A stretch of DNA of 64,000 nucleotides, from NCBI RefSeq assembly GCF_002355635.1, contig NZ_AP017558.1, forward strand, positions 2,542,001-2,606,000. The letters run 5' to 3'. The notes beneath the pieces are model-generated. The model did no database searches and was not told where the DNA came from. It saw only the letters and a program-made list of their open reading frames with translations. Position numbers and translations under genes: made by a program. Within the stretch, counting starts at the first letter, position 1, and each line of letters starts with the position of its first letter. The stretch comes from Halopenitus persicus. Lineage in GTDB: Archaea > Halobacteriota > Halobacteria > Halobacteriales > Haloferacaceae. Shown in pieces: positions 3,140 through 37,013 of this stretch.

Positions 3140-3188
3140 CATCTCGACCGCCGATCACGGCACTGGCGCATCTCGACCGCCGATCACG
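3140..3188. repeat. 20-bp direct repeat spanning the stop codon of the deacetylase gene
   Basis: Two identical 20-bp copies lie at 3140-3159 and 3169-3188 with a 29-bp period. The inner copy contains the TGA stop (3184-3186, minus strand), so the unit duplicates the 3' end of the gene. Confidence 0.9.
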
Positions 3189-4299
3189 CGAGCGTCGGCC
3201 AGTACTCCGCGTGGTGGTCGACGGCGTCCGCTACGGCGCGGCGCGTGGACTCGACGTCCTCGTCGATCCAGGCGAGCGGATCCGCCACGTCGGAGTCGAT
3301 CCCGAGCACGCCCTCGAGCACGCCGAGGGTCGCGTACGCGAGGTGGCTCACCTGATAGCCGCCCTCCTGGACGATCGCCAGGTTCCCGTCGGCGTGGGCC
3401 GCCGCCAGCGCGGCGATCCGCGCACCGAGGGTCTCGAACCCGGCCTTGGTGACCACGTTCCGGCCGAGCGGGTCGACCGTTCCCGGGTCCTGGCCGGCGC
3501 TGACGAGCAGGAGGTCGGGATCGTACGCCTCGAGGACGGGGTCGACGATCCGGTCGAGAACGAGCTCGTACCCCTCGTCGCCGGCTCCGGGCGGGAGCGG
3601 CACGTTCACGTTGTACCCCGTTCCCGTCCCGGTGCCGACCTCGTCGAGGTTCCCCGTCTGCGGGTGGTGTTCGGGATCCCACGACTGGTGGTCGTTGTGG
3701 ATCCCGACCACGCAGACGTCCTCGCGGTCGTAGAAACACTCCTGGGTTCCGTTGCCGTGGTGGACGTCCCAGTCGACGACCGCCACCCGGTCGACGTCGC
3801 GCGTGGCCAGCACGTGGTCGGCCGCGACGGCGACGTTGTTGAGATAACAGAACCCGTCGGCGCGGTCGGGCTGGGCGTGGTGCCCGCTCGGCCGCACCAG
3901 GGCGTACGGGACCTCGTCGTCCGACGTCGAGAGGGCGTGCTCGGCGGCGCTGCGGGCGGCGCCGGCCGCGTGGCGCGCGGCCCGGTAGGTGTGCTCGTTC
4001 GCGCCCGTCTCGGCCGTGAGCCGGCCACCGCCCTGCTCGCAGAACGCCTGCAGCTCCTCGAGGTAGGACGGCTCGTGCGTTCGGGTGAGCTGGTCGCGGG
4101 TCGCCGGGTCGGGCTCCACCCACTCGATCCGCTCGGGGATCTCCGTCCGGAGGATCCGGTTCACGTTCCGCATCCGCTCGGGTCGGTCCGGGTGGGGCTC
4201 GCGGTAGGCCAGCCGTCCCGTCCACTCGGCCTCGTTCTCGCCGGCGGGGTGGTCGTGTGCGAGGAAGCTGTCGTGCCAGAATGCGGTCACGGTGCGCAT
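3184..4299 (-). CDS. histone deacetylase/acetylpolyamine amidohydrolase family hydrolase
   Basis: This 371-residue zinc amidohydrolase belongs to the arginase-deacetylase fold (HDAC, AcuC, acetylpolyamine amidohydrolase). Visible motifs are RPSGHHA (136-142, paired active-site His), DGFCYLNN (148-155), DWDVHHGNGTQ (176-186, Zn ligands Asp178 and His180), SAGQD (267-271, third Zn ligand Asp271) and QEGGY near 317. The SAGQD form, instead of the SAGFDAH of AcuC and HDACs, marks a divergent subgroup. It follows the ornithine cyclodeaminase gene by 81 nt on the same strand and faces amine catabolism genes, so N-acetylated amine or polyamine deacetylation is more likely than histone deacetylation. 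The substrate is inferred. Confidence 0.85.
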   Translation of the reverse strand: MRTVTAFWHDSFLAHDHPAGENEAEWTGRLAYREPHPDRPERMRNVNRILRTEIPERIEWVEPDPATRDQLTRTHEPSYLEELQAFCEQGGGRLTAETGANEHTYRAARHAAGAARSAAEHALSTSDDEVPYALVRPSGHHAQPDRADGFCYLNNVAVAADHVLATRDVDRVAVVDWDVHHGNGTQECFYDREDVCVVGIHNDHQSWDPEHHPQTGNLDEVGTGTGTGYNVNVPLPPGAGDEGYELVLDRIVDPVLEAYDPDLLLVSAGQDPGTVDPLGRNVVTKAGFETLGARIAALAAAHADGNLAIVQEGGYQVSHLAYATLGVLEGVLGIDSDVADPLAWIDEDVESTRRAVADAVDHHAEYWPTLA

Positions 4300-4380
4300 C
4301 AGTTCGGCGTCACGGCCGGCGGTTTCCTCAATCTTTCGACCGGTGAACCGGCGAGCGCGCCGACCGCCTCGTTCCCCGGA

Positions 4381-5370
4381 TCAGGACGTGTCGATCAGGT
4401 CGAACGCCGTCCCTGCGTCCGCGTCGTTGGCCGCCTCGTAGGTGACGCGCGCGGCGGCGACGTCCTGGATCGCCAGGCCGGTGGAGTCGAAGACCGTGAT
4501 CCCGTCGTCGTCGGTCCGGCCGGCTTTCGTGCCGGTGACGATCTCGCCGATCTCCGCGTAGATGTCGGGGTCCGTGATCTCCCCGCGTCCGTACGGGACG
4601 TTGATCTCCCCCGAGTGGGTGGTCTGGTCGTGGTCGTCGATCGTGAGCTTCGCGGCCGAAAGCACCGCCGTCTCGAGCTCCTGTTTGCCGGCGGCGTCGG
4701 CGCCCATCGCGTTGATGTGGGTGTGATCGCCCACGTCCGCGAGGCTCACGATCGGGTCGCGGACCGGCGTGACCGTCGAGAGGACGTCACAGGAGGCGGC
4801 CTCGGCGATCGACCCCTCGCGGACGTCGAACTCGCCGGAGAAGTGGTCGATGAAGCGCCGGACGCGCTCCTCGTCGAGGTCGCTGATGACGATCTCGGTG
4901 ATCGGCCGCACCTCGGCAATGGCCTCGACCTGCGTGTACGACTGGATTCCTGCGCCAACGATGCCGAGCGTCGACGCGTCCTCGACCGCCAGGTGGTCTG
5001 TCGCGACCGCCGCCGCGGCGCCGGTACGCTGCATCGTCAGCATCGTCCCGTCCATGATCGACAGCGGGAGCGCCGTCTCCGGGTCCGAGTAGATCATCGT
5101 CCCCATCACCGTGGGAAGACCGTGCTCCTTGGGGTTGTCGGGATGGACGTTGACCCACTTGATCCCGGCGGCGTCCCAGTCGCCGGCGTCCATATACGCC
5201 GGCATCGACCGGAAGTCGCCGTTGTACCGTTCCAGCTCGACGTAGGACTTGGCCGGCATCTGGACGCTGCCGCGCTCGTAGGCCGCGAAGGCCTCCTCGA
5301 CGGCGGGGATGACGTCGGTCATCCGGGCGTACGTTTCGACGTCCTCGCTGGACAGCAACAGGACGGACAT
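4381..5370 (-). CDS. ornithine cyclodeaminase/mu-crystallin family oxidoreductase
   Basis: The 329-residue NAD(P)-dependent protein has the family Rossmann motif GIVGAGIQSYTQ (about 130-141), followed by VISDLDEERV for dinucleotide binding, plus the conserved HINAMGADAAGKQEL and STGLAIQDVAAA segments. Members convert ornithine to proline plus ammonia, act as alanine dehydrogenases, or reduce cyclic ketimines; the sequence alone does not decide. The start at 5370 is supported by a TATA box about 26 nt upstream, giving a leaderless transcript. An ATG farther upstream would add a 25-residue extension that is not needed. It is probably first in an operon with the deacetylase gene. Confidence 0.88.
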   Translation of the reverse strand: MSVLLLSSEDVETYARMTDVIPAVEEAFAAYERGSVQMPAKSYVELERYNGDFRSMPAYMDAGDWDAAGIKWVNVHPDNPKEHGLPTVMGTMIYSDPETALPLSIMDGTMLTMQRTGAAAAVATDHLAVEDASTLGIVGAGIQSYTQVEAIAEVRPITEIVISDLDEERVRRFIDHFSGEFDVREGSIAEAASCDVLSTVTPVRDPIVSLADVGDHTHINAMGADAAGKQELETAVLSAAKLTIDDHDQTTHSGEINVPYGRGEITDPDIYAEIGEIVTGTKAGRTDDDGITVFDSTGLAIQDVAAARVTYEAANDADAGTAFDLIDTS

Positions 5371-5390
5371 ACCACCGGGTCTCGAGTCTA

Positions 5391-5401
5391 GGATAATAAA
5401 A
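5391..5401 (-). promoter_or_regulatory. TATA box of the ornithine cyclodeaminase gene
   Basis: On the minus strand it reads TTTTATTATCC, centred about 26 nt upstream of the ATG at 5370. This is the expected spacing for a leaderless archaeal transcript. Confidence 0.65.
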
Positions 5402-5676
5402 CCAATTATTTCGGAAACGTTGGCTTCCGTTTCATCGACGATCATCTCGTTAGATCTCATCCGATTCGATCGGCAGTGGATTCGTGGTCGTTCGACCACC
5501 GGGGCCAACCGTCGACTGATCCGATGGCGACGGACGTCGATCAGTCGGATATTGGGACAACGATCGGTCCGGCAGTGGACGACGACCGGTCGGACGCCCG
5601 GGTCGGCGAACCCGCATACGCGTGCTCGCGGCCGGCACACGGCGCTATGGCGCCGTTCCGAGACTGTCGGCACAAC

Positions 5677-5710: not shown

Positions 5711-7039
5711 ATGAGCTCCGATCAAACCGCACGACAGTTGGCTCACGATCCAGATTGGATCCCCCACTGGTACGATCCGGACGGCGACAGCGCCCCGATA
5801 ACCGACGGCGAGGGCGCGCGCATCATCGACGACGAGGGCGAGTCGTACCTCGATTTCATCGCCTCGCTCTACTGCGTCAACGCCGGCCACGACAACCAGG
5901 CGATCATCGACGCGGTCAAAGAGCAACTCGACCACATTCCGTACGTCTCCTCGGGCAAGGAGAACGACACGCGGACGGAGCTTGCCCGCCGGCTGGCGGA
6001 GGTCTCCCCGGACCCGCTCACCGACGTCGTCTTCTCGGTGTCGGGCAGCGAGGCGAACGAGCTGGCCGTCCAGTACGCCCGCGAGTACCGCGACGCCCCG
6101 AAGGTCCTGACCCGGTGGCAGTCCTACCACGGCAGCACCTACGGGACCGCCGCTCTGACCGCCGACCCGAGCACGCGAAACACCGTCAGCTCCCACGCCG
6201 CCGTGACCGGCTCGGGCAAGTTCCTGCCGCCCCTCCCGTCGGTCTTCGACGCCGAGGGCGAGGAGCTCGCCGAGCAGGCGGCCAACCACGTCGAGTACGT
6301 CATCCGCAACGAGGGCCCCGACTCCGTGGCCGCGATCCTGATGGAGCCGGTGGCCGGCTCCAGCGGCGCCTACCCAGCCCCGGAGGGGTACTTCGAGCGT
6401 CTGCGGGAGATCTGTGATGAATACGGGATCCTGCTCATCGCCGACGAGGTGATCGCGGGATTCGGTCGCTGCGGGGAGATGTTCGCGATGCAGGACGAGG
6501 GCGTCGACCCGGACATGATCTCGTTCGCGAAGGGCGTCACGAGCGCGTACGTCCCCCTCGCCGGCGTCCTGATGCGCAAGGAGATCGCCGACGAGATCCG
6601 CGAGGACGGCACCGAGGTCGGACAGACCTTCGCGGGGCACCCGCTTGGCTGTGCCGCCGGGCTCGCGGCGATCGACGAGTACGAGAGCCACCTCATCGAG
6701 AACGGCCGGGAGATGGGTGCGCTGTTGGAGGACGGCCTCCACGACCTCGTCGAGCGGTACGACGAGATCTCGCACGTCCACGGCAAGGGGCTCCTGTGGG
6801 GCATCGTGGTCGAGAACCCCGAGACCGGCGAGGAGTTCGCGAACTCCTGGGTCGACGACGGCGACGTCGACAACCCCGTCAGCGAGATCGTCGGCGAGGC
6901 AAAGGACCGCGGCGTCCTCGTCGGGCTCGGTCGTCCCGACTACCAGATCACCCTCTCCCCGCCGCTGTGCATCGACGAGGACGACGTCCAGGAGGCGCTC
7001 GACGCGCTCGACGAGTCGTTCGCGGCCGTCTTCGAATAG
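5711..7039 (+). CDS. class III (omega) aminotransferase, 4-aminobutyrate-type
   Basis: The 442-residue PLP enzyme has all core features: the cofactor phosphate loop SVSGSEAN (109-116), DEVIAGFGRCG (245-255; Asp245 contacts the PLP nitrogen), the Schiff-base lysine Lys274 in SFAKGVTSAY, and GQTFAGHPLG. Class III enzymes deaminate terminal amines such as GABA, putrescine, beta-alanine or ornithine. Next to glutamine-synthetase-like and amidotransferase genes, a PuuE/GabT-like role is a reasonable inference. Taurine- or beta-alanine:pyruvate aminotransferase remain alternatives. The stop codon lies inside a 21-bp repeat array that continues downstream. Confidence 0.88.
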   Translation: MSSDQTARQLAHDPDWIPHWYDPDGDSAPITDGEGARIIDDEGESYLDFIASLYCVNAGHDNQAIIDAVKEQLDHIPYVSSGKENDTRTELARRLAEVSPDPLTDVVFSVSGSEANELAVQYAREYRDAPKVLTRWQSYHGSTYGTAALTADPSTRNTVSSHAAVTGSGKFLPPLPSVFDAEGEELAEQAANHVEYVIRNEGPDSVAAILMEPVAGSSGAYPAPEGYFERLREICDEYGILLIADEVIAGFGRCGEMFAMQDEGVDPDMISFAKGVTSAYVPLAGVLMRKEIADEIREDGTEVGQTFAGHPLGCAAGLAAIDEYESHLIENGREMGALLEDGLHDLVERYDEISHVHGKGLLWGIVVENPETGEEFANSWVDDGDVDNPVSEIVGEAKDRGVLVGLGRPDYQITLSPPLCIDEDDVQEALDALDESFAAVFE

Positions 7040-7133: not shown

Positions 7134-7763
7134 CTACGATTCGCAGTACGCGGCGAAGTTCTCCAGCACCCGCGTAGCGTTACACTCCGCGAAGGTGTGG
7201 TCGCCGTCCTCCCAGTCGCTTGGCCGGTCACGCACGCGCTCGGTGAACTCCGGGTGGAACTGCACCGTCCAGATCGGCGCGTCGGTGTGCCGGGTGCAGA
7301 AGTAGTCGTTGTACTCGGTCTCGGCGATCGGCTCCATCCCCTCGCCGGGCTCGACGACGAGGTCGGAGTGGAGGACGGGAACGATCGGGTTCACGCCCTC
7401 CAGGATCGGATCGTCCGCGTCGAGCGTGCGCATCTCGACGAAGGTCGCCCGACGGCGGTCCTCGACCACGTCGCCGCCGAGCGCGTAGTTGACAAGCTGG
7501 TGGCCGAAACAGACGCCCAGAAGCGGGATCGATTCCTCGAGACAGCGCCGCACCAGGTCCATCTGCGTCTCGAACCACGGGTAGCCGTCCTCGTAGACGC
7601 TCGCGGTGCTGCCGCTCACGATCACGCCGTCGAACGCCGAGAGCGGGGGCGTCTCGGGGTCCTCGGCGTAGACGTGGTACTCGCTGTCGGGGGTGAACTC
7701 GGCGATCTCCGGGCCGAGATACCGATACTCCGGGTTCACTTCGTCGTCGAGGACGAGGATCAT
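7134..7763 (-). CDS. class I glutamine amidotransferase domain protein
   Basis: The 209-residue stand-alone GATase1 domain has the nucleophile in GVCFGHQ (Cys85) and the His-Glu pair of the triad in FHPEF (His170, Glu172). Related stand-alone domains include GuaA-type subunits and gamma-glutamyl hydrolases such as PuuD, although PuuD itself is from the C26 peptidase branch. It is divergent from the glutamine-synthetase-like gene 160 nt away. If that enzyme makes a gamma-glutamyl amide, this one is a good candidate to hydrolyse the product. A TATA-like element about 30 nt upstream suggests a leaderless transcript. Confidence 0.85.
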   Translation of the reverse strand: MILVLDDEVNPEYRYLGPEIAEFTPDSEYHVYAEDPETPPLSAFDGVIVSGSTASVYEDGYPWFETQMDLVRRCLEESIPLLGVCFGHQLVNYALGGDVVEDRRRATFVEMRTLDADDPILEGVNPIVPVLHSDLVVEPGEGMEPIAETEYNDYFCTRHTDAPIWTVQFHPEFTERVRDRPSDWEDGDHTFAECNATRVLENFAAYCES

Positions 7764-7842: not shown

Positions 7843-7926
7843 ATGAGACAAGCGACCACACAGTTAGCGATCCGCCAGGGGCTCGTCAGTCAGGGACCGA
7901 TCCGCAGGGGGGCGATGGCCGAATGA
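7843..7926 (+). CDS. possible 27-codon upstream ORF overlapping the ligase start
   Basis: The ATG at 7843 opens a short frame (MRQATTQLAIRQGLV...) ending in a TGA that overlaps the next start codon as ATGA (7923-7926). A G-rich stretch (aggggggcgatgg) just before 7923 could be a Shine-Dalgarno site for reinitiation, and ggtgg at 7829 may serve the short frame. Genes that begin ATGA create such an overlap automatically, so chance is a real alternative. Confidence 0.25.
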   Translation: MRQATTQLAIRQGLVSQGPIRRGAMAE

Positions 7927-9239
7927 GCGAGGCGGCCGACCGGATGGTCGAGACGATCGAGGATCCGGCGATCGACCACGTCTTCGTCGAGTTCGCCGAC
8001 GTCAACGGGATCTCCCGGTCGAAGCAGCTCACCGCGGACGCCTTCCTCGAGAAGTGGGCGGACGGATTCGCGATGAACCTCGTGCTGCTGGCCCAGACGC
8101 CGCGCAACCACGTCCCGGAGGGATCCGGACTCGGCGCGGAGATCGGACACGCCGACGGCACCGTCCATCCGATCCCGGAGACGACGATGCGGCTCCCTTG
8201 GCGCGAGAACGCCGTCCGGGTCCTGTGTCGGTTCTTCCACGAGGACGAGCGGCTGGCGTGCTCGCCCCGGGCGGTCCTCGAGTCGGTGCTTGCGGCCAAC
8301 GACTTCGGGTTCGACTTCTATGCTGGCAGCGAGCTCGAGTTCTACCTCCTCGAGGAGGGCCCGGATGGCGAGTACCTCCCCGCGACGGACGACAACCACG
8401 AGTGCGTCTCGTGGGCCACCGAGGAGGTCGCCGACTTCTACGACCGGCTCGTCGAGTGGGCCGGCGGGTACGGGATCGACCTCACCGCGCTCCACCACGA
8501 GCACGGGGCCGGCCAGCTCGAGGTGCTGTTCGACTACGGCCGCCCGCTCGAGCAGGCGGACACGACCTTCGATTTCAAGCGGCTCGTCAAGCAGGTCGGC
8601 CGCAGCTTCGACCAGTGGCCGACGTTCATGGCCAAGCCCTTCGCCGACCGGTCCGGAAGCGGCTACCACCTCCACGTGAGCGCGTTCGACGACGAAAAGA
8701 ACGTTTTCGCGGCCGTCGCGGATGACTCCGACGGAACCCTCTCCGAGCGCGGTCGACACTTCGTCGGTGGGCTGATGGAACACGCCGACGCGCTGGCCGC
8801 GCTCGGCACGCCGAGCATCAACGGATTCAAACGGTTCGAACCGAACTCGTTCGCGCCCTACACCGCCTCCTGGGGGTACGACAACCGGATGACCGCGGTT
8901 CGCGTTCCGCCGGGGGTCATTCGTCCCGAAACCCGGATCGCCAGCGCCGACGCCAACCCCTACCTCGTCATCGCGGGGACCATCGCCGCCGGCCTCGACG
9001 GGCTCCGACGCGAACTGGAGCCGCCGGCGCCGACCGAGGGCGATCCGACCGGCGACCGGCCGGATCTCCCGCGCTCGCCCGAACTCGCCCTGCGCGCGCT
9101 CGAGACCGACGACGCGATGGTCGATCTGCTCGGCGAGGACGTCGTTCGCGTCTATGCGGCCTCCAAACGGCGCGAACTGCAGGCGTTCCGGGACCACGTC
9201 ACCGACTGGGAGCGCGACCAGTACGTGAAGACGGTCTAG
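7923..9239 (+). CDS. glutamine synthetase family ligase (gamma-glutamylamine synthetase-like)
   Basis: The 438-residue GlnA-fold enzyme contains ELEFYLLEE (137-145), GAGQLEVLF (195-203, the counterpart of PGQ(H/W)E in GS), FMAKPF..GSGYHLHVS (235-253, ATP and glutamate region) and a basic active-site segment YDNRMTAVRVPPGV. It differs from bona fide archaeal GS in these loops and in its surroundings; gamma-glutamylputrescine, gamma-glutamylethanolamide and gamma-glutamylanilide synthetases have the same general form. Beside aminotransferases and an amidotransferase, ATP-dependent gamma-glutamylation of an amine (PuuA-like first step) is the best inference. The amine itself is unknown. Confidence 0.85.
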   Translation: MSEAADRMVETIEDPAIDHVFVEFADVNGISRSKQLTADAFLEKWADGFAMNLVLLAQTPRNHVPEGSGLGAEIGHADGTVHPIPETTMRLPWRENAVRVLCRFFHEDERLACSPRAVLESVLAANDFGFDFYAGSELEFYLLEEGPDGEYLPATDDNHECVSWATEEVADFYDRLVEWAGGYGIDLTALHHEHGAGQLEVLFDYGRPLEQADTTFDFKRLVKQVGRSFDQWPTFMAKPFADRSGSGYHLHVSAFDDEKNVFAAVADDSDGTLSERGRHFVGGLMEHADALAALGTPSINGFKRFEPNSFAPYTASWGYDNRMTAVRVPPGVIRPETRIASADANPYLVIAGTIAAGLDGLRRELEPPAPTEGDPTGDRPDLPRSPELALRALETDDAMVDLLGEDVVRVYAASKRRELQAFRDHVTDWERDQYVKTV

Positions 9240-9272: not shown

Positions 9273-9311
9273 ATGGTTCCATCTGTTGGAACGCATAGAG
9301 AAGACTCATGA
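9273..9311 (+). CDS. possible 12-codon upstream ORF before the fusion gene
   Basis: The short frame MVPSVGTHREDS ends in a TGA overlapping the start codon of the next gene as ATGA (9308-9311). No TATA box stands at the spacing expected for a start at 9273 and no clear Shine-Dalgarno precedes it, so support is weak. Confidence 0.18.
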   Translation: MVPSVGTHREDS

Positions 9312-11644
9312 CGGATGCAGCCACCTTGTTAGAGCCATTTGTCGTACGCCCCCCGACCATGGATGAGCGGCGGGCGGCACGGATCGCCGAACGCGAGTTC
9401 GGCAAGCCGGGAACCGCGACCGAACTCGGCGGCGAGCGGGATCAGAACTTTCGGATCGACGTCGCCGACGGCGAGGCGTACGTCCTGAAGATATCCAGCC
9501 CGGCCGATGACGAAGCATCGCTCGATCTGCAGACGGAGGCGCTGCGTCACATCCAACGGGCCGATCCCGACCTCCCGGTGATGGAACCGGTGCCGACGAC
9601 CGATGGATCGCTATGGACGACGATCGAGGACGACGAGACGTATCACGTGCGGCTGTTCACCCACGTTCCGGGCCGACCCGTCCCGGGGCAGGACCTCGAC
9701 GCGGAGGCGCTCTTCGAATACGGGGCGGTCGTGGCACGGCTCGGAAAAGCACTCCGCGGTTTCTTCCATCCCGACGCCGATTACGACGTCCTGTGGGATC
9801 TGCGGCACGTCCCCGAGCTTCGGTCGCTGCTCGACAGCGTCACCGACGCCGAGCGACGCGAGCTGGCCGAACGCATCCTCGACCGGTTCGAGAACCGGGT
9901 GGAACCGGGCTTCGAGTCGCTCCGTGCGCAGGTGATCCACAACGACCTCACGCTCGATAACGTCCTGCTTGACGACTCCGACCGCGTCAGCGGCGTCGTG
10001 GATTTCGGCGACCTCACCCACACGGCCCTCGTGAGTGACCTGGTGATGGCGGTGGCGAGCGTGATGTACCGGCGCGACGACCCGATCGAGGCGGCCCAGG
10101 ACGTGATCCGGGGATACGTCAGCGTCACGCCCCTCGAGGACGAGGAGGCGGAACTGCTGGCGGATCTGGTTGCCGCACGACATCTCACCTGGGGCGTCAC
10201 CGTCGCGTGGCGGCTCGAGGAACATCCCGAGAAGACGGACGCCCACAGCGTCGCCGGCGTCGACGACGGGTGGAACCTCCTGCAGTCGCTCGATGAACGG
10301 GGGCTTGACGTCGTCAATCATCGCCTCCGAACCGCCGCAACGTCCGGCGCCCTTCCGTATTCCCGGACCGGCACGTCGGAAGTACTGTCTCGGCGACGGG
10401 CGGTGCTCGGATCGTCGCCGCTCTCGTACGACGATCCCGTTCACTTCGTCGACGGCGATGGGGTGTGGTTGTACGACCCGACCGGCCGACGCTACCTCGA
10501 CGCGTACAACAACGTCCAGGTCGTCGGGCACGCGAACCCGGCGGTCGCGGACGCCATCGCGGGACAGGCACACACGCTCGCCACCAACACGCGGTACCTC
10601 CACGAAGCGCCGGTGGAGCTGGCCGAACGGATCCTGGCGACGATGCCCGACGAGCTGGACCGCGTCCTGTTCGTCAACTCCGGCAGCGAGGCGACGGATA
10701 TCGCGTGGCGACTGGCCACCGCCGCGACCGGAAACGAGGGCGCGATCGTCTCGGAGAACGCGTATCACGGCATCACGGAGGCGATGACCGCACAGTCCCC
10801 GACGATCTGGCCCGAGGGGATGGATCCGGACCACGTCGAGACGGTCACCCCACCGATCGACGACGCACACCACGGGGACCGACCGGCCGCGGATCCGGTC
10901 CAGGGGATGACCGAATCGCTGGCCGCCCTCGAGAAACGGGGAACGGGGACCGCGGCGTGGATGTTCGATCCGCTGTTCACGAGCGACGGCATCCACTCCC
11001 CCGACGAGGCGCGAGCGGGATCGATGGCCGAGCGCGTCCGCGAGGCGGGCGGACTCGTCATCGCGGACGAGGTGCAGGCCGGGTTCGGCCGCTCCGGGGA
11101 TGCCCTCTGGGGCTTCCGGAACGCGGACGTCGTTCCCGACGTCGTCACGCTCGGCAAGCCGATGGGCAACGGACATCCCGTCGCCGCCGTCGTGACGCGG
11201 TCGGACGTCGCCTCGGCCCTGTACGACGGGACCGGCTTTTTCAGCACGTTCGGCGGGAATCCCGTGTCCTGTGCGGCCGCGCTGGCGGTGCTGGACGAGA
11301 TCGAGAGGCGCGACCTGCTGCCGCACGTCGTCGACGTCGGCACCTACCTGCGGGACGGACTCGCGGAACTGGCCGCGGAACACGAACGCATCGGTGACGT
11401 TCGTCAGCAGGGACTGATGGTCGGCGTCGAGCTCGTCACGGACCACGAAACCCGGGAGCCGGCATCGAGCGAGGCGACCGCGGTCGTCAACGGACTGCGT
11501 CAGCGCCGGGTGCTCATCGGGTCGACCGGCGCGGACGGGAACGTGCTGAAGATCCGGCCGCCGCTGGTGTTCGAACGGACACACGCGGACCGGCTCCTTG
11601 CGGCGTTGGACGACGTCCTCTCGGAGCTATCACGTCACGACTGA
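9308..11644 (+). CDS. kinase-aminotransferase fusion (APH-type kinase + class III aminotransferase/phospho-lyase)
   Basis: The 778-residue two-domain protein starts with an aminoglycoside-phosphotransferase-fold kinase: Lys61 in VLKIS, Glu77, catalytic HNDLTLDN (211-218) and metal-binding VDFGD (231-235). After a linker at about 335-365 comes a full class III PLP domain: NSGSEAT (457-463), DEVQAGFGRSG (587-597) and Schiff-base Lys617 in TLGKPMGNG. In animals the same two activities are separate (hydroxylysine kinase and 5-phosphohydroxylysine or ethanolamine-phosphate phospho-lyase). Bacterial fusions usually carry an M23 peptidase-like module between them, which is absent here. A phosphorylate-then-eliminate reaction on a hydroxyamine is inferred. 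Confidence 0.85.
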   Translation: MTDAATLLEPFVVRPPTMDERRAARIAEREFGKPGTATELGGERDQNFRIDVADGEAYVLKISSPADDEASLDLQTEALRHIQRADPDLPVMEPVPTTDGSLWTTIEDDETYHVRLFTHVPGRPVPGQDLDAEALFEYGAVVARLGKALRGFFHPDADYDVLWDLRHVPELRSLLDSVTDAERRELAERILDRFENRVEPGFESLRAQVIHNDLTLDNVLLDDSDRVSGVVDFGDLTHTALVSDLVMAVASVMYRRDDPIEAAQDVIRGYVSVTPLEDEEAELLADLVAARHLTWGVTVAWRLEEHPEKTDAHSVAGVDDGWNLLQSLDERGLDVVNHRLRTAATSGALPYSRTGTSEVLSRRRAVLGSSPLSYDDPVHFVDGDGVWLYDPTGRRYLDAYNNVQVVGHANPAVADAIAGQAHTLATNTRYLHEAPVELAERILATMPDELDRVLFVNSGSEATDIAWRLATAATGNEGAIVSENAYHGITEAMTAQSPTIWPEGMDPDHVETVTPPIDDAHHGDRPAADPVQGMTESLAALEKRGTGTAAWMFDPLFTSDGIHSPDEARAGSMAERVREAGGLVIADEVQAGFGRSGDALWGFRNADVVPDVVTLGKPMGNGHPVAAVVTRSDVASALYDGTGFFSTFGGNPVSCAAALAVLDEIERRDLLPHVVDVGTYLRDGLAELAAEHERIGDVRQQGLMVGVELVTDHETREPASSEATAVVNGLRQRRVLIGSTGADGNVLKIRPPLVFERTHADRLLAALDDVLSELSRHD

Positions 11645-11840: not shown

Positions 11841-12686
11841 CTACCGCTGGCGGAGCAGTTCGCTGATGACGATGAGCGAGATGCTGAACAGCAGCACCAT
11901 CGCGCTGATCGCGTTGATCACCGGGTCGGTCCCGTGTTGGACCTTCGACCAGATGTAGATCGGGAGCGTGTTCTCGACGCCGCTGGTAAAGAAGGCGATC
12001 AGGAAGTCGTCGAAGGAAAGCGTGAACGCGAACAGTGCCCCGCTGATGATCCCGGGCATCAGGATGGGCAGGGTCACCCGGCGATAGGTCTGCCACTTGC
12101 TGGCGCCCAGGTCGCGGGCTGCCTCCTCGAGCTCGGGATCGAACCCGCGCAGGCGCGCGCTCACGGTAATGAGGACGAACGGGGTCACGAAGACGAGCTG
12201 GCCGAGCATCACGGTGCGAAGCGACGTGTTGAACCCGATCATGTTGAACCAGAGCAGCAACGCGATCCCGAGGATGAGCCCGGGAATCGTCATCGGCGCG
12301 ATGACGAGCGCGCGGAACAGCCCCTTCCGCCGGAAGCTGCCGCGGACCAGAGCGATCGCCCCGAGCGTGCCGAGGATCGTCGCACCGGTGGTGACGAACG
12401 CGCCCACGTAGAGGCTGTTGAGCGTTGATTGGATGAGCCGGTCGTCGTTGACCATCTGGACGTACCACTGCATCGTGAACCCGTCCCACGGGAAGCCGGA
12501 GAAGGTCCCCTGCTCGAAGGAGAAGAGGATCAGGACGGCGATCGGCGCGTAGAGGAATCCGAAGACGAGCACGGCCCAGACCGGCATCCAGTATCCCCCA
12601 ACGGCGTTCAGCAGGGTGTCGATCGGTGACTGGCCCGAGGACTCTTCGGCGGCGGTCCCGTCGGACGTCGCGGCGTCGACGCTCAT
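11841..12686 (-). CDS. potC: ABC transporter permease, PotC type (transporter 1)
   Basis: The 281-residue inner-membrane protein has about six transmembrane helices and the EAA loop (EEAARDLGASKWQTYRRVTLP, near 190-210) that docks onto the ATPase. The C-terminus carries the PotC signature VINAISAMVLLF. It starts one base after the stop of the PotB gene, so the two are translationally coupled. With the divergent PotD and PotA genes it makes a spermidine/putrescine-class importer. This class also moves other organic amines and amino acids, so the substrate is not fixed by sequence. Confidence 0.9.
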   Translation of the reverse strand: MSVDAATSDGTAAEESSGQSPIDTLLNAVGGYWMPVWAVLVFGFLYAPIAVLILFSFEQGTFSGFPWDGFTMQWYVQMVNDDRLIQSTLNSLYVGAFVTTGATILGTLGAIALVRGSFRRKGLFRALVIAPMTIPGLILGIALLLWFNMIGFNTSLRTVMLGQLVFVTPFVLITVSARLRGFDPELEEAARDLGASKWQTYRRVTLPILMPGIISGALFAFTLSFDDFLIAFFTSGVENTLPIYIWSKVQHGTDPVINAISAMVLLFSISLIVISELLRQR

Positions 12687-13584: not shown

Positions 13585-13607
13585 ACTCCCCTTTGATCGA
13601 ACTCTAT

Positions 13608-13778: not shown

Positions 13779-13810
13779 TGAGAGCACGACATGCTACTGT
13801 AGACCTCACG

Positions 13811-28170: not shown

Positions 28171-28202
28171 CCTCAGAACCGCTTGCCCTCAGAACCGCTC
28201 GC
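28171..28202. repeat. 16-bp tandem repeat spanning the aldehyde dehydrogenase stop codon
   Basis: Two copies, 28171-28186 and 28187-28202, differ at one base. The stop (28189-28191, minus strand) lies in the gene-proximal copy and is duplicated in the distal one. Confidence 0.9.
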
Positions 28203-29700: not shown

Positions 29701-30146
29701 CGGATCATATACACCTTCCGAACCGTCTCCTCGACGCGACAGGTGCCGCTCCAGCCGGCCGGGAACAGGACCGTGGTCCCGGGTTCGATATCGATCACGG
29801 TGCCGTCCTCGTGGGTGTACGTCGCCCGCCCCTCGAGGAAATAACAGAACTCGTCGCGGTCGACCTTGCACCGCCACGTGCCGGGGGTGCAGGTCCACAC
29901 GCCGCTTTCGGAGCGACCGTCCGGGCCCTTGTGGATGACCGTGCCGGCGGTGCGCGACTCGCCCTCGATCGGCTCGTCGACGACGCCCCAGTCATCGAGA
30001 TCCGCGTCCGCGAGGGCGGCCGGATCCTGGAGGACGCTCGCGGACGGCGCCCCGCCGTCAGCCACCGCCGACGCCTCGTCGTCAGCCGTTCCCGCCGCCG
30101 ACGCCTCGTCGTCAGCCGTTCCCGCCGCCACGTCGTCGTCAGCCAT
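29697..30146 (-). CDS. small cupin-domain protein (DUF861/EutQ-like)
   Basis: The 149-residue protein has an acidic N-terminal half (1-45) containing an in-frame 10-residue duplication (AAGTADDEAS), then a single cupin barrel: VIHKGPDGRSESGVWTC, FCYFLEGRATYTHEDG, IEPGTTVLFPAGWSGTC. The pattern resembles the DUF861 cupins of ureidoglycine aminohydrolase and EutQ types; few metal-ligand histidines are visible, so catalysis is uncertain. The gene overlaps both neighbours (8 bp with the glycosyltransferase, 4 bp with the dehydrogenase), so it is firmly part of that operon. Confidence 0.8.
   Translation of the reverse strand: MADDDVAAGTADDEASAAGTADDEASAVADGGAPSASVLQDPAALADADLDDWGVVDEPIEGESRTAGTVIHKGPDGRSESGVWTCTPGTWRCKVDRDEFCYFLEGRATYTHEDGTVIDIEPGTTVLFPAGWSGTCRVEETVRKVYMIR
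30067..30126. repeat. 30-bp in-frame tandem duplication inside the cupin gene
   Basis: Two identical 30-bp units (30067-30096 and 30097-30126) encode repeated 10-residue acidic segments in the disordered N-terminus. Confidence 0.92.
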
Positions 30147-31425
30147 GGGTCTCCAGGACGTCCTCGAGCAGCGTCGCTGCCTTCTTCCGGCCGTCGCTGG
30201 ACTGCATGTCCTCGGCGGTACGGTCAACGTTCTCCCGGATCGTCTCGTCGGTGAGACACGTCCCGATCGCTCCCGCGAGCTCGTCGTCGGTCCAGTCCGA
30301 CCGATGCAGCTTGATCCCGTGGTCGGTCTCGTCGACGCGCGTGGCGTTGTCGTGGCCGTCCCAGACGTACGGCATCACGATCGCCGGCGTTCCGTAGTAG
30401 AGACACTCGTTGAACGTGTTGTTGCCGCCGTGGTGGATCACCACGTCGGCCCGTTCGATGACCGTCTGCTGGGGGAACCAGCTCTCGATCGCCACGTTGC
30501 CGGGGACCTCGACGTCGTCGTAGGCGTCCTCGTAGTCGCCGACGTTGACGAGACAGCGGTACTCCTGCGTCCCGAGGAACTCGATCAGCCGCTTCATCAG
30601 GTCCGTGTCGCCGGCGCCGAGGCTGCCGAAGCTGAGGTACAGCAAGGGTGCATCGTCGTCGGCTTCGAGATCCGGGACCTCGTAGGACTCGTTCTCCTCG
30701 CGGATGCACCCGTTGAGGTACGCAAAGCGGTCCGGATCGAGCTCGTTCCAGCGGTCCCAGCGGAGCCGCTCGGGGTACTTCAGGAGGTTCAGGTACGGCG
30801 ACGTCTCGTAGAACAGTCCCCGCGGGTACGGGTCCTCGCCGTGATCGGCCAGGAACTCGTTGAACCGCTCGTGGACGTCCCCGATGACCTCCTCGTAGCG
30901 CTGTTGGAACTCGTGGTAGTGCTCGACGTCGTCCGCGCGGGCGCCGGACAGGTGCGGCGGAATGTTCGGGTCGGGGATCTCGTTCTCCGAACACGACGTG
31001 ATCCGGACCCAGGGGACGCCGTACTGCTTGGTGGAGGGGAAGAGGATCACGTTGTCGACCACGATCAGGTCCGGATCGATCTCCTCGAGGACCTCGGGAA
31101 GCTCCGTCTCGGCCCACTCCGCGGAGGCCACGATCGCCTCGTAGGTCTCCTCGACGTAGTTGTCGAGCTGGTCGATCGGGGCCTTGTCGAAGTTCGGGAT
31201 GTGGGTGTTGATGAACTCCTCCCACCCCGCGTCGGCGTCCGGGTCGGACATCGGCACGTAGTGCTCCTCGAAGCCGTACTCCTCGAAGACGCCCTCCATG
31301 CTCGGGTCGCAGATGAACACCGGCTCGTGGCCGCGCTCGCGACACACTTGAGCGATCCCGACCGAGTTGAGCGCTGGACCGTACGCCGCCTCCGTGAAGA
31401 AGGCGATCGTGGCGCCGTCGCTCAT
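30139..31425 (-). CDS. UDP-glycosyltransferase-like (GT1/MGT-type) enzyme
   Basis: The 428-residue GT-B-fold protein has an acceptor-binding N-terminal half and a C-terminal donor-binding half: LYLSFGSLG, WFPQQTVIERADVVIHHGGNNTFNE (two segments), then YYGTPAIVMPYVWDGHDNATRV. The FPQQ and HHGG motifs are those of UDP-glucosyl/glucuronosyltransferases and macrolide glycosyltransferases, which glycosylate small lipophilic acceptors. A Shine-Dalgarno GGAGGTG (31430-31436) lies 4 nt before the ATG. Upstream is a 26-codon ORF whose TGA overlaps this start. Cupin and aldehyde dehydrogenase genes follow with overlaps. Its acceptor is unknown; cell-wall or protein glycosylation is less likely for this family. 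Confidence 0.85.
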   Translation of the reverse strand: MSDGATIAFFTEAAYGPALNSVGIAQVCRERGHEPVFICDPSMEGVFEEYGFEEHYVPMSDPDADAGWEEFINTHIPNFDKAPIDQLDNYVEETYEAIVASAEWAETELPEVLEEIDPDLIVVDNVILFPSTKQYGVPWVRITSCSENEIPDPNIPPHLSGARADDVEHYHEFQQRYEEVIGDVHERFNEFLADHGEDPYPRGLFYETSPYLNLLKYPERLRWDRWNELDPDRFAYLNGCIREENESYEVPDLEADDDAPLLYLSFGSLGAGDTDLMKRLIEFLGTQEYRCLVNVGDYEDAYDDVEVPGNVAIESWFPQQTVIERADVVIHHGGNNTFNECLYYGTPAIVMPYVWDGHDNATRVDETDHGIKLHRSDWTDDELAGAIGTCLTDETIRENVDRTAEDMQSSDGRKKAATLLEDVLETHG

Positions 31426-31622: not shown

Positions 31623-32462
31623 TCAGTCGATCCGGGGATCGAACCGGGCCGCGAACACCGCCACGAGCAGCCCCGACAGCAGCAACATCGCGCCGATGGC
31701 GTTCATCTCCGGCGTCAGGTGGCGGCGAAGCCGGTCGAAGATCAAAAGCGGCATCGTGAACGTGTCCGGACCGCTCACCATGAACGTGATGATGAACTCG
31801 TTGAGCGAGAGCAGCATCGCGAAGATGAACCCCGAGACGACCGACGGGAAGATCTGCGGGAGGACGACGAGGACGAACGTCTCGGCGCGGGTCGCGCCGA
31901 GATCGCGCCCCGCCTCGGTGATCGCCGGCGGGAAGGACCGCACTGCGGCGTAGATGATCAGGAACGTGTAGGGGAACACGTAGATCACGTGGCCGACGAG
32001 CACGGAGAGGAACCCGAAGTCGATACCGATGACCGAGAGGTACAACAGCAGCGCGATCCCGATGAAGATGACCGGGATGAACATCGGCAACAACAGCGAT
32101 CCGATGAGCCACCGGATCCAGTCGCCGGCGTCGTTCGCCTCCAACCGCGAGAATCCGTATGCGGCGGGAAGGGCGAGCAGCGTGGCGACCACCGCGCTGG
32201 CGACCATCAGCCGAACGGACAACCACAGCGCACTCCAGAACTCGGCGTCCGCCGCCAGATCCCGGTACCACTCCAGAGTGAACCCGGTCAGCGGGAAGAA
32301 CCCGAGGTCGTTGGCGTTGAACGACATCACGATCACGAGCGCCATCGGAACGTAGAGGAACGCGATCGTGAACCCGGCCAGCCAGCGGGTGACGTCCAGG
32401 TCCGACGGGACCCGGGCATCGACGGTATCGCCCAGCGTTCCGATCGCGGATTTTCGCGCCAT
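31623..32462 (-). CDS. potC: ABC transporter permease, PotC type (transporter 2)
   Basis: The 279-residue permease has six predicted helices, EAA loop (EAGRDLGATRAETFVLVVLPQIFPS, two halves) and the PotC terminal signature EMNAIGAMLLLSG. The start at 32462 overlaps the potB stop (TGATG). An in-frame ATG 30 nt upstream lies inside potB and is less likely. It is the last gene of the potD-potB-potC unit of transporter 2. Confidence 0.9.
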   Translation of the reverse strand: MARKSAIGTLGDTVDARVPSDLDVTRWLAGFTIAFLYVPMALVIVMSFNANDLGFFPLTGFTLEWYRDLAADAEFWSALWLSVRLMVASAVVATLLALPAAYGFSRLEANDAGDWIRWLIGSLLLPMFIPVIFIGIALLLYLSVIGIDFGFLSVLVGHVIYVFPYTFLIIYAAVRSFPPAITEAGRDLGATRAETFVLVVLPQIFPSVVSGFIFAMLLSLNEFIITFMVSGPDTFTMPLLIFDRLRRHLTPEMNAIGAMLLLSGLLVAVFAARFDPRID

Positions 32463-33340
32463 CAGGTCATCACCTTCCGAAGGGTGAGCCACCGCGAGAG
32501 CCCGGCCAGCACCACGAGGACGAACGCGAACAGGACGACGCTATACGCCGCCCCGAGCGGCCAGTTGAAGCTGTCCTTGAACTGGTTGACGAGGACGTTC
32601 CCGTACCACAACGTCCGGGGGGATCCGACGAGTTCGGGCGTCACGTACGCGCCGATCGCCCGTCCGAAGATGAAGACGAACGACAGGACGATCCCGGGCA
32701 TCGCGAGCGGCAGGATCACGTATCGAAGGACCTCGAACCGGTTCGATCCGAGGTCGTACGCCGCCTCGATCTGCGAGCCCGGGATGGCGTCGACGGACCC
32801 GTACATCGCGAACAGCGAGTACGGGAGGTAGATGTACACCATCGTTGCGATCACCGCGAACTCGGTGTACAGGAGGCTTATCGGCTCCGCGACCGCGCCG
32901 ACCCCGGTCAACACCTCGTTGATGAGCCCCTTGTCGCCGAGCATCAGCATCCACGCCCAGGTCCGGACGATGTAGTTCGTCCAGAACGGGGCGATCGCGA
33001 CGAGGATGAACAGCGCGCCGGCCCGCCCGTCGAGCGTCTGGCCGCCGTACCACGCGACCGGGAACGCCATCGCGGTCGTGACGACCGCGATCACGAGCAC
33101 CTTCGCCAGCGTCTTGGCGAAGATCGCCACCGTCCGCGTCGAGTCGAACAGCGCCTGGTAGTGCTCCAGCGAGAAGCCCGGATTCCAGAGGTTCCCCTCC
33201 ATCGGCCAGAAGCTGAAGTAGATCGCCCACACGAGCGAGAACAGCCCGATCCCGACCATCACGGCGACTGCCGGCGCGGTCAGTGCGAGATCGCGGAGCG
33301 TCCGACCCCGGCCGTGAGAGCGGATTCGCGGGAGCTTCAT
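32462..33340 (-). CDS. potB: ABC transporter permease, PotB type (transporter 2)
   Basis: The 292-residue permease has six helices, the PotB segment APFWTNYIVRTWAWMLMLG and EAA loop IEAAYDLGSNRFEVLRYVILP. It starts 33 nt after the solute-binding protein gene and overlaps potC by one base. It resembles its transporter 1 counterpart in architecture, not closely in sequence, so the two systems are not a recent duplication. Confidence 0.9.
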   Translation of the reverse strand: MKLPRIRSHGRGRTLRDLALTAPAVAVMVGIGLFSLVWAIYFSFWPMEGNLWNPGFSLEHYQALFDSTRTVAIFAKTLAKVLVIAVVTTAMAFPVAWYGGQTLDGRAGALFILVAIAPFWTNYIVRTWAWMLMLGDKGLINEVLTGVGAVAEPISLLYTEFAVIATMVYIYLPYSLFAMYGSVDAIPGSQIEAAYDLGSNRFEVLRYVILPLAMPGIVLSFVFIFGRAIGAYVTPELVGSPRTLWYGNVLVNQFKDSFNWPLGAAYSVVLFAFVLVVLAGLSRWLTLRKVMT

Positions 33341-33373: not shown

Positions 33374-34588
33374 CTATCCCTTGAGCTCCTGCCACATCTG
33401 CTGGGCGGTTTCGAGCTCCTCGTCGCCGAAGTAGCGGCGCATCCGGAGCCGGTCCTCGTTCTCGAGGACGACCGACCGGTGATCGCGCTCGGTTTCGGTC
33501 ATGTCGTCGCGCGCGTCGAGGTTGATCGGGAGGTTCCCCGCGTTTCGCATCTGCTGGATCGACGCGTCCGGCGAGGAGTAGTGGTCCATGAACTCGACCG
33601 CGAGGTCCGGATTGGGCGCGTCCGCGGCGAGCTGGTGGGCGTCCGCGTAGCCGTCGGTCCCCGCCGGCGGAACGGCCATCTCGACGGGATGGCCCTGGTC
33701 CATCGCCAGGAAGCCGGTGAGGTCCCACCCGTGTTGGACGACGACCTCCTCGTTGGCGATCAGCTTCAGGTGCTGGTCCTGCGTCGACCAGAGCGTGCGG
33801 TAGGAGGGGAAGGCTCCCTCCAGGGCGTCCCGACAGGCCTCGAGGTCGCTCGGCGGGTGTGGATGGTCGTCCCCGAGGTAGTATCCCGCGTTGGCGAAGG
33901 CCGCGATCGGCCAGTCGCGCATCGCGATCCGCCCGTCGAGGTCGTTGGACTCGATCGTTTCCGGGTCGAACAGGTAGTCCCAGGAGAGCTCGTCCGGCTC
34001 CTCGTCGATGACGTCGGTGCGGTACATCGGCCCGGTCATCCCGTACGCGTACGGGATCGCGGTCTGCGTCCCGTCGATGACACACCCCGGGGCGGTCCGT
34101 GCGCGCTCGACCAGGTTCCCGAAGTGGCTCATGTCGTCGGTCGGGATCGGTTCGACGAGGTCGGCGTTCCAGAGCGGCTCGACCCAGTTGTTGGTCACGC
34201 CGATCACGTCGACGTCGCCCTGATACTGCGTCCGCATCAGGCCGACCGCCTCGGAGTTCGTCGTCAGGCTGATCACCTCGACGTCGACGCCGTGTTCCTC
34301 CTCGAACGGCTCGACGATCGAGTCCGGGTAGTAGAAGTTGTACCCGAGGATGGTCAGGGTTTGGTCCCCGGATCCGCTGCTTCCCTGGGTCGCGCCGTTT
34401 CCGCTCCCGTCGCCGTTTCCGTCCCCGTTCCCGTCACCGTTTCCGTTCCCGCCCCCGTTTCCACCGTCTCCCAGGCAGCCGGCGAGTCCCGTTCCCAATC
34501 CGCCAACCGCACCGAGCGTCGCGAGGAATCCACGCCTGTCGTTCGACGGCGTCGGATCTGCGCGACTCGACGATCGCGTTCTTGTCAT
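33374..34588 (-). CDS. potD: PotD-type solute-binding lipoprotein (transporter 2)
   Basis: The 404-residue binding protein has a Tat signal (NDRRGFLATLGAVGG, 16-30), a lipobox (TGLAGC, near 38) and then a Gly/Asn/Asp linker of about 35 residues built from GNGDGNGDG repeats before the mature domain (TLTILGYNFYYPD). The long hydrophilic linker probably spans the S-layer space. It is transcribed from a TATA box about 30 nt upstream, divergent from the IclR gene 171 nt away. Confidence 0.9.
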   Translation of the reverse strand: MTRTRSSSRADPTPSNDRRGFLATLGAVGGLGTGLAGCLGDGGNGGGNGNGDGNGDGNGDGSGNGATQGSSGSGDQTLTILGYNFYYPDSIVEPFEEEHGVDVEVISLTTNSEAVGLMRTQYQGDVDVIGVTNNWVEPLWNADLVEPIPTDDMSHFGNLVERARTAPGCVIDGTQTAIPYAYGMTGPMYRTDVIDEEPDELSWDYLFDPETIESNDLDGRIAMRDWPIAAFANAGYYLGDDHPHPPSDLEACRDALEGAFPSYRTLWSTQDQHLKLIANEEVVVQHGWDLTGFLAMDQGHPVEMAVPPAGTDGYADAHQLAADAPNPDLAVEFMDHYSSPDASIQQMRNAGNLPINLDARDDMTETERDHRSVVLENEDRLRMRRYFGDEELETAQQMWQELKG

Positions 34589-35780: not shown

Positions 35781-35804
35781 TTGGATGTCAATATAGGAGG
35801 TGCA

Positions 35805-35831
35805 ATGACACGTCACTGCGAGGGTTGGTGA
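35805..35831 (+). CDS. 8-codon upstream ORF before the FAD oxidase gene
   Basis: ATG at 35805 opens MTRHCEGW and stops at 35831, three bases before the oxidase ATG. A perfect GGAGGTG lies at 35796-35802, but by TATA spacing the transcript may start at or just before 35805, which would leave the site outside the mRNA. Either way a ribosome would meet this mini-ORF first. It may be a leader peptide; at this length chance is hard to exclude. Confidence 0.4.
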   Translation: MTRHCEGW

Positions 35832-35834
35832 CCG

Positions 35835-37013
35835 ATGCGGATCTGCATCGTTGGAGCGGGGATCGCGGGCTGTCACGCGGCCTTCGATCTCGCCGCCGAC
35901 CACGACGTCACGGTGCTCGACAGGGTCGGGATCGCCGCCGAGGCGACCGGATACTCGGCGGGGCTCGTCGCACCCACGCAGTATTACCCCGACCGCCCCG
36001 CGATCGCGCGCCACGCGAACGGCTTCTTCGCCGACTTCGACGGATCACACGGCTTCGAGTTCACCGAACGGGACCGGCTCGACGTGATGACTGACGAGGA
36101 GGCCGAGACCGCCCGATCGACCGCCGCGAAACTCGCCGACGCCGGCTTCCCCGTGGATTATTTCGAGACTGACGAGATTTCGGACCGGTATCCCCGGATC
36201 CGACCGGACGACTTCGCCGGAGCGGTCCGATACGGGGACACCGGTTGGGTGGACCCGTACACTTACGCGACCGCGCTCAAGGCGGCCGCCGAGGTCGACG
36301 GCGCCGCGTTCGAGATCGGCGTCGAGGTCGAGGACGTTCGGCTCGGACGGAGCGACGACCACGCCGTCCGGACTGACGACCACGCCGTCCGGACTGACGA
36401 CCACGTTATTCGTACCGACGACGGCCGCTACGAGGCCGACGCGATCGTCCTCGCCGCCGGGTGGCGGACTCGGGACCTGCTGCCCGGCGACCTGGAGGTT
36501 CCGATCCGTCCGTATCGGACGCAGTGCGTCGTCCTCGAACCCGAGACGCCGCTGGAGGACTCGACCCCGACCGGCCGGATCGGTAGCGAGCACCTCTACT
36601 TCCGCCCGGAGCACAACGGCGACCTGCTGATCGGCGGCGCACACGACACGATCGCGGACCCGCGAACCGCCTCGACGGACGCCGACGAATCGTTCACCCT
36701 CGATGTCGCCGGATTCGCCCCGACGTTCTTCGAGGGGTTCGACGACGCCGGGTTCCTCAACGGCTGGGCCGGGGTCGACACGGCCTCCCCCGACACCCGC
36801 CCGATCATCGACTCGCCGGTCGGCGCGCCCGATTCCCTGGTCGTCGCGACCGGGTTCAACGGGCTCGGCGTGATGACCTCGCCGGTCGTCGGACCGACCG
36901 TCCGGCAGCGGCTGACCGGGGAGCCGGCACCGTTCCCGGCCGAAACGTTCGCCGCGGATCGCTTCGACGACGTCGGCACTGACTTCGAGTACGTCTCCAC
37001 CTCCGAGGTGTGA
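35835..37013 (+). CDS. FAD-dependent amine/amino acid oxidoreductase (DAO family)
   Basis: The 392-residue flavoprotein has the dinucleotide motif GAGIAGCHAA (7-16), the second FAD strand VVLDR-type segment (VTVLDRVGIAAEATGYSAG), and the C-terminal DAO signature (GWAGVDTASPDTRPIIDSP then VVATGFNGLGVMTSPVVG). DAO-family members include D-amino acid, sarcosine, glycine and gamma-glutamylputrescine (PuuB) oxidases. In this locus a PuuB-like role is possible. Residues 174-196 hold three in-frame copies of DDHAVRT, an insertion between core strands. T6 after the stop suggests termination. Confidence 0.87.
   Translation: MRICIVGAGIAGCHAAFDLAADHDVTVLDRVGIAAEATGYSAGLVAPTQYYPDRPAIARHANGFFADFDGSHGFEFTERDRLDVMTDEEAETARSTAAKLADAGFPVDYFETDEISDRYPRIRPDDFAGAVRYGDTGWVDPYTYATALKAAAEVDGAAFEIGVEVEDVRLGRSDDHAVRTDDHAVRTDDHVIRTDDGRYEADAIVLAAGWRTRDLLPGDLEVPIRPYRTQCVVLEPETPLEDSTPTGRIGSEHLYFRPEHNGDLLIGGAHDTIADPRTASTDADESFTLDVAGFAPTFFEGFDDAGFLNGWAGVDTASPDTRPIIDSPVGAPDSLVVATGFNGLGVMTSPVVGPTVRQRLTGEPAPFPAETFAADRFDDVGTDFEYVSTSEV
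36354..36410. repeat. 21-bp in-frame tandem repeat inside the oxidase gene
   Basis: Two perfect units (36354-36374 and 36375-36395) and a diverged third (from 36396) encode DDHAVRT, DDHAVRT and DDHVIRT. Confidence 0.93.

Follow-up and report, generated by a model that had tools for sequence, protein, structure and literature searches.

Does the window analysed here, a 64,000-nucleotide stretch of a 3.1 Mb haloarchaeal genome (C1:2542001-2606000), encode an archaeal counterpart of the gamma-glutamylated putrescine (Puu) pathway of bacteria? The original prediction held that it does, naming five enzymes within 34 kb: a ligase of the glutamine synthetase (GS) family, a FAD oxidase of the DAO family, an aldehyde dehydrogenase (ALDH), a class I glutamine amidotransferase-like hydrolase (GATase) and a class III aminotransferase (AT3a), together with two PotABCD-type importers. 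The genes that it named are open reading frames where it placed them and belong to the Pfam families that it gave; all genes named here show haloarchaeal codon use (GC3 0.85-0.94), and the soluble proteins that they encode are acidic. Because class III aminotransferases (9 matches to one AT3 protein), ALDHs and DAO proteins (25 and 28 candidates in loose first-look counts) abound in this genome, their presence together in 34 kb says little. The ligase and the GATase are informative, since both are uncommon and remain associated from one genome to the next. On balance, we regard the left part of the window (approximately 2.3-16.2 kb, perhaps with the gene for a protein of the aldehyde ferredoxin oxidoreductase (AOR) family) as probably a gamma-glutamylation island for amine catabolism, that is, by predicted function, a haloarchaeal version of the known gamma-glutamylation-based routes.

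The ligase gene (7923-9239, plus strand; Pfam Gln-synt_C) encodes a candidate gamma-glutamylamine synthetase, and the only other PF00120 match in the genome is an ordinary GS at C1:455831. The ligase does not reach the NCBIfam thresholds for GS type I (234 against 429 bits), GS type III (263 against 470 bits) and gamma-glutamylputrescine synthetase (NF045547; 241 against 650 bits). It retains 13 of 21 checked E. coli GlnA positions, namely those for metal and ATP and most of those for glutamate; E. coli PuuA, a ligase of the same type, retains the identical 13, compared with 20 in the genome's own GS. The substitutions are D50 to N, S53 to V, Y179 to C, E207 to T, N264 to S, E327 to F, K352 to G and Y397 to T; the ammonium-site residues D50, Y179 and E327 (Salmonella numbering) are among them, and all three are intact in the organism's own GS. 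In a GS-family tree of 80 of the 159 extracted rows (the remainder being duplicates or surplus; all trees here are quick IQ-TREE searches with SH-aLRT support only), the ligase falls within a haloarchaea-only clade of 30 rows (support 100), and a branch with support 99 splits off 17 GS rows, haloarchaeal ones and E. coli GlnA. The ligase forks with PuuA, IpuC and bacterial rows (support 86), but unlike the E. coli enzyme it lies outside the single clade formed by the six PuuA rows (support 100). The expected kinship with PuuA is thus borne out as a non-GS, sister-side placement and not as membership of the PuuA clade, and a position inside the bona fide glutamine synthetases, named in advance as the finding that would speak against the prediction, was not observed. 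Judged from its residues and tree position, the ligase is not a glutamine synthetase, having lost the ammonium site; with metal and ATP residues kept and a placement beside PuuA and IpuC, it has the features of a non-GS gamma-glutamylamide ligase in the broad sense.

Homologues with at least 50% identity to the ligase occur in 5 of 146 Halobacteriales genomes (G000, G034, G055, G071 and G108), the next best listed match being 39% identical, and a Halopenitus persicus homologue is 96% identical. The gene lies on a 3.0 Mb contig in the window's genome and on a 3.8 Mb contig in G055. We rejected a close bacterial source of the subfamily, given that the best non-haloarchaeal match reaches 38% among the best 80 listed and 38% in a plasmid search. 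Into this clade, in which the ammonium site is lost, fall at least seven genes from plasmids (H2-H5 and H7-H9) whose annotation reads glutamine synthetase or a member of its family. Haloarchaea have two more GS-like types in which ammonium-site residues are changed, each in a clade of its own (L132/L138/L140 and L008/L011/L141/L143/L144).

Among characterized relatives, Haloferax mediterranei GlnA-2 (HFX_1688) has glutamate-putrescine ligase activity, called the first in Archaea in the available text of the report (PMC8394153). Like the window ligase, it is a haloarchaeal GS-family protein without D50, Y179 and E327, but positions D50, Y179, E327 and H271 read S, A, G and N in GlnA-2 (Table 2 of the same report, as available) and N, C, F and H in the window ligase. 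Equating the two was rejected on this residue pattern, a comparison that draws on the published table. IpuC of the Paenarthrobacter aurescens plasmid pTC1 is likewise a GS-like ligase encoded near an annotated glutamine amidotransferase and an alanine dehydrogenase; unlike the haloarchaeal subfamily, it sits on another tree branch, with 33% identity to the window ligase. In the literature that we found, with subscription journals thinly covered, archaeal gamma-glutamylation is known for the first step only and no cluster is described. A conserved haloarchaeal cluster of ligase, hydrolase, aminotransferase and importer supplies specific candidates for the later steps.

We scanned 10 kb around 27 ligase loci, using hand-set identity cut-offs per family and counting duplicate loci once (L048/L052, L049/L059 and the G-handle copies of L043 and L046); some loci end at contig ends, so the counts are too low. 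Nine loci come from a plasmid collection, where plasmid location is an effect of the choice of collection. The GATase gene (7134-7763, minus strand) has a counterpart near the ligase at 15 loci, AT3a (5711-7039, plus strand) at 11, and the first importer at 11 for each of its genes, which in the window are PotC1 and PotB1 (permeases; 11841-12686 and 12688-13611, minus strand), PotD1 (solute-binding lipoprotein; 13778-14968, plus strand) and PotA1 (ATPase; 15020-16204, plus strand). An Lrp/AsnC-type regulator ('u2' in the window; 2267-2827, minus strand; Pfam AsnC_trans_reg 41 bits, HTH_24 35 bits) recurs at 10 loci, a class II HDAC-like deacetylase (3184-4299, minus strand; Pfam Hist_deacetyl) and an alanine-dehydrogenase-like protein of the OCD/mu-crystallin family (4381-5673, minus strand) at 8 each, and a fusion of an APH-type kinase with a class III aminotransferase fold (9308-11644, plus strand) at 6. 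AOR (19968-21632, plus strand; Pfam AFOR_N and AFOR_C) is found at 5. Further families near the ligase are AT3b (13 loci; no near copy in the window, best match in the genome 39%), GabT (6), agmatinase (5) and the aldehyde dehydrogenase ALDHx (5). Collapsed into 19 genus-level groups, the loci show GATase in 12, AT3a and AT3b in 10 each, the first importer in 9 and DAO in 7. None of the ligase-neighbour families was found in 20 arbitrary 20 kb control stretches of haloarchaeal genomes (placed without regard to how far catabolic genes lay from them), where the sole match was one ROK gene.

Co-occurrence across genomes points the same way for part of the set, with the limit that these five-genome Fisher values ignore kinship and that E-value and identity cut-offs were picked after viewing the lists. 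GATase at 60% identity or more is present in 5/5 ligase-bearing and 1/141 other Halobacteriales genomes (Fisher 1e-8), AT3a in 5/5 and 34/141 (0.001), the HDAC-like gene in 4/5 and 11/141 (4e-4), and PotD1 in 2/5 and 0/141 (9e-4). Around 59 such matches outside haloarchaea, at loci of which some are short and some hold ordinary GS, five had a GATase match nearby and three a PuuD match. These data bear on a further explanation, that the window holds a loose catabolic island with genes of several nitrogen-compound pathways and no joint function. Gene order and content do differ between genera, and at least two other modules, described below, are interleaved; yet the joint recurrence of ligase, GATase, AT3a, OCD and the first importer in several genera and in none of the controls, with ligase and GATase together in all five genomes, makes a lack of joint function highly improbable. 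Of the five families that the original prediction expected to travel together, ligase, GATase and aminotransferase do keep company, the ALDH belongs to another operon and the DAO is in doubt, so that on present evidence its naming is plausible for three enzymes, wrong for one and doubtful for one.

The GATase scores 82.8 bits against Pfam GATase (PF00117) and 42.6 bits against Peptidase_C26, above both cut-offs, and unlike in the E. coli Puu system it is PF00117 that scores above C26. Among solved structures, GMP-synthase amidotransferases match it best (E 3e-12) and gamma-glutamyl peptidase 1 reaches E 2e-8; we consider the protein a candidate gamma-glutamyl-GABA hydrolase. In Haloarcula sp. 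JP-L23 the GATase next to the ligase matches in three pieces (L045:14147-14768), is absent from the gene table and may be broken or misread. AT3a (Pfam Aminotran_3) is 33% identical to PuuE and has taurine:2-oxoglutarate aminotransferase as its best solved relative. The kinase-aminotransferase fusion we take, by a presumed analogy, to be perhaps a kinase joined to a phospholyase acting on a hydroxylated amine. The best NCBIfam match of the OCD gene is archaeal alanine dehydrogenase at 361 bits, under the cut-off of 409, and its homologues align only from residue 101-102, so its true start is probably near codon 101; archaeal alanine dehydrogenases can belong to the OCD family, as stated in the accessible part of PMC3102087.

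The HDAC-like gene had been labelled acetylpolyamine-amidohydrolase-like, a name that does not fit, given that it scores higher with HDAH (224 bits) than with two solved acetylpolyamine amidohydrolases (145 and 135 bits); two-domain HDAC6 chains reach 277 bits over two stretches and single-domain HDAC6 152. The gene proves nothing about polyamines, since not all HDAC-family proteins of Pseudomonas aeruginosa deacetylate them (PMC4784309, in its available text).

Closest to the island in layout is the spuABCDEFGH/pau system of Pseudomonas (P. putida PP_2177-80: puuA-I, spuA, spuC-I), the full gene order of which we take to be as commonly given. In both, at the level of families, a GATase-type hydrolase, a GS-like ligase, a class III aminotransferase and a Pot-type importer stand together (in the window and several relatives), and unlike spu the archaeal clusters add an OCD-type alanine dehydrogenase, AOR, a class II HDAC and the kinase-aminotransferase fusion. 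Relatives of the window supply genes for the ends of a route. Downstream of the ligase, Haloarcula sp. JP-L23 carries PotCB, PotDA, a GabT-like aminotransferase, a protein of the agmatinase family, and succinate-semialdehyde dehydrogenase (SSADH)-like and PuuC-like ALDHs, and the same stretch holds OCD, AT3a and an annotated pyruvoyl-dependent arginine decarboxylase; the set PotDA-GabT-agmatinase-ALDHx is also present in Natrinema gelatinilyticum and G055. The Natronosalvus agmatinase is above its NCBIfam cut-off (185.4 against 174.3 bits), the Haloarcula one falls 1.6 bits short (172.7), and 229 kb away in the genome of the window there is a 67% match to the Natronosalvus protein.

Because agmatinase-, GabT-, SSADH- and PuuC-like genes lie in the clusters of relatives, the simplest reading of the genes would be a route from arginine or agmatine via putrescine and gamma-glutamylation to GABA and succinate. 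The ligase would join a diamine, most likely putrescine (formed from agmatine by agmatinase, or imported), to glutamate at the expense of ATP. Next, AT3a would most likely take off the amino group at the free end of the glutamylated product, possibly with pyruvate as acceptor, and the adjacent alanine-dehydrogenase-like OCD protein would recycle the alanine. We infer a pyruvate-dependent aminotransferase because the neighbouring alanine dehydrogenase would suit one, as with SpuC in Pseudomonas; the spu/pau gene roles, with SpuC as a pyruvate-dependent aminotransferase, are given in the accessible portions of PMC9397018 and PMC11879879. Oxidation of the aldehyde might fall to the AOR-family enzyme or to an ALDH encoded at some other place in the genome. 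The GATase would cleave gamma-glutamyl-GABA, giving back glutamate, and GabT and GabD would convert GABA to succinate. For comparison, the available text of PMC8437039 describes agmatinase and transamination for putrescine in SAR11, without gamma-glutamylation.

Several observations weigh against this reading of the island. AT3a is commoner than the ligase (39/146 genomes) and lies on a different contig from it in G034 and G071, and GATase relatives at E 1e-30 are present in 39/146 genomes. At these cut-offs neither GATase nor DAO lies within 10 kb at five of the 27 loci (L047, L053, L054, L063 and L067, three of them short stretches), and the AOR and agmatinase families are each near the ligase at just five. 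Genome G100 (L223, C1:1162000-1181999) has GATase, AOR, Lrp and a GabT-like aminotransferase together without a ligase. The window holds no PuuC-like ALDH of the island type, the search for one having been confined to the window.

The importer adds a further point. Polyamine-binding proteins are among the best solved relatives of PotD1 and PotD2, but PotD1 retains just 3 of 13 positions that we take to be the contact positions of E. coli PotD (their letters agreed with the E. coli PotD sequence), as does PotD2, in low-identity alignments in which E. coli PotF retains 7 of 13; contact positions of PotF itself were set aside, one of them having disagreed with its sequence. Uptake of putrescine or spermidine through the first importer is therefore doubtful, and its substrate may be agmatine or some other cation of guanidino or hydrophobic type. 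The lack of a polyamine signature in PotD1 also favours a different explanation, in which the ligase glutamylates a monoamine, an amino alcohol or a guanidino compound that the GATase frees again after modification, comparable to the IpuC and ethanolamine routes. The neighbouring kinase-aminotransferase fusion would suggest hydroxylated amines, and the IpuC cluster has a similar combination of genes. We nevertheless consider a substrate other than a diamine rather unlikely, as the agmatinase-, GabT- and GabD-like genes in some ligase clusters point to putrescine and GABA.

Is the oxidase then the PuuB of this pathway? The DAO gene (35835-37013, plus strand; Pfam DAO) encodes a protein with 24% identity to E. 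coli PuuB over 237 aa (E 2e-5). In a tree of 45 of 58 rows (13 duplicates or near-copies omitted, and the L065 DAO, at a contig end, not included), it belongs to a haloarchaeal family that is distant from PuuB and separate from its clade. On this placement and the low identity we rejected orthology with PuuB. An analogous role, with ligase, DAO, ALDH and GATase in one full counterpart of Puu and the DAO at the PuuB step, has several points in its favour. At 9 of the 27 loci a DAO homologue is no more than 10 kb from the ligase, as its direct neighbour in Natrialba, in genome G034 and at the locus L065 of a metagenome-assembled genome; in Natronorubrum, approximately 3.3 kb separate a DAO that groups with the window DAO (support 99) from a ligase belonging to the same subclade as the window ligase; and the DAO family is present in 4/5 ligase-bearing against 14/141 other genomes (Fisher 8e-4). 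However, five of the nine loci (L046, L056, L060, L065 and L066) hold a ligase subclade that is missing from the window's genome, which the other four do not. Around the DAO nearest in sequence (62% identity), the 29 kb read contain no ligase, although one lies approximately 80 kb away on the same plasmid.

The DAO also has company of its own. An aminotransferase (ATu) and an arginine-deiminase-like protein are its neighbours in 8 of 12 chosen DAO-centred stretches (L168-L171 and L214-L221), a PotABCD set is present in seven of these eight units, and in the second copy of the window's own genome (L221) there is only PotA. Within the subclade of the window DAO, just one of four stretches (L214, as opposed to L168, L215 and L216) has this unit. 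Taken with the ALDH described below, these data leave a full Puu counterpart doubtful, and an oxidase role of the DAO in the ligase pathway by analogy is possible. As an observation apart from this question, a unit of DAO, class III aminotransferase, arginine-deiminase-like protein, PotABCD and ALDH recurs at L221 (C1:1706000-1725999), L169, L170, L214 and L217-L220, and the solute-binding protein PotDu of two such units checked retains 10 of the 13 PotD contact positions in low-identity alignments.

The ALDH had been assigned to the aldehyde step, for which its distribution offers some support, as it occurs in 2/146 genomes, both ligase-bearing (2/5 against 0/141; Fisher 9e-4). It is 36% identical to PuuC (Pfam Aldedh), with betaine-aldehyde dehydrogenase (BADH) as its best NCBIfam match, and is the final gene of another operon; on this basis we rejected it as the PuuC of the ligase pathway, and the finding weighs further against a full Puu counterpart. 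On the minus strand, from 34588 to 28189, run PotD2 (solute-binding lipoprotein; 33374-34588), PotB2 and PotC2 (permeases; 32462-33340 and 31623-32492), a glycosyltransferase of the GT1/MGT type (GT; 30139-31425), a EutQ-like cupin (29697-30146; Pfam Cupin_3 73.7 bits) and the ALDH (28189-29700), and the ATPase gene PotA2 stands apart on the plus strand (25963-27012). The last three genes overlap end to end, the GT stop lying inside the cupin start and ATGA joining cupin and ALDH. The cupin had been overlooked in the original prediction. For the ALDH, the open reading frame spans 28189-29898, and the ATG at 29700, which the prediction had given, agrees with homologues. The frame at 30139-31425 was also tried as an aminotransferase and rejected, its profile matches being glycosyltransferases.

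The order PotD-B-C-A-GT-cupin-cupin-ALDH, in one direction and with PotA in line, is found on four alphaproteobacterial plasmids (Shinella, Ruegeria, Rhizobium and Pararhizobium; L262-L265), whose GT and ALDH are 56-59% and 54-58% identical to those of the window. No ligase or GS-like match and no DAO match was found in the 31 kb around each of the four operons, and two of the four stretches hold other annotated FAD-dependent oxidoreductases. Since the operon is conserved without ligase or DAO, we treat the second importer and the ALDH as a separate module; both predicted importers exist, and only the first is linked with the ligase. The earlier caution that parts might be analogous recruitment was well placed. 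Unlike in E. coli, the DAO is not PuuB-like and the window ALDH belongs to another operon. Our literature search found no described pathway for the PotD-B-C-GT-cupin-ALDH operon, and this second, cross-domain operon, now separated out, merits study of its own.

GT occurs in 9/392 Halobacteriales genomes, eight of which, the window's genome included, have the ligase; the exception is a genome 61% complete. We suggest, as an improbable idea, that two amine-protecting chemistries are joined here, a glutamate tag and a sugar tag, the latter added by the importer-GT-cupin-ALDH pathway shared with alphaproteobacterial plasmids. If so, a transaminase, pyruvate-alanine recycling and a ferredoxin-linked aldehyde oxidoreductase would stand in for PuuB and PuuC. 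Alongside the second module and its PotA2 lie ROK (27122-28084) and PGM (24022-25827) genes, and the region is mostly collinear in two further genomes of the same genus (L267/L273 and L268/L274).

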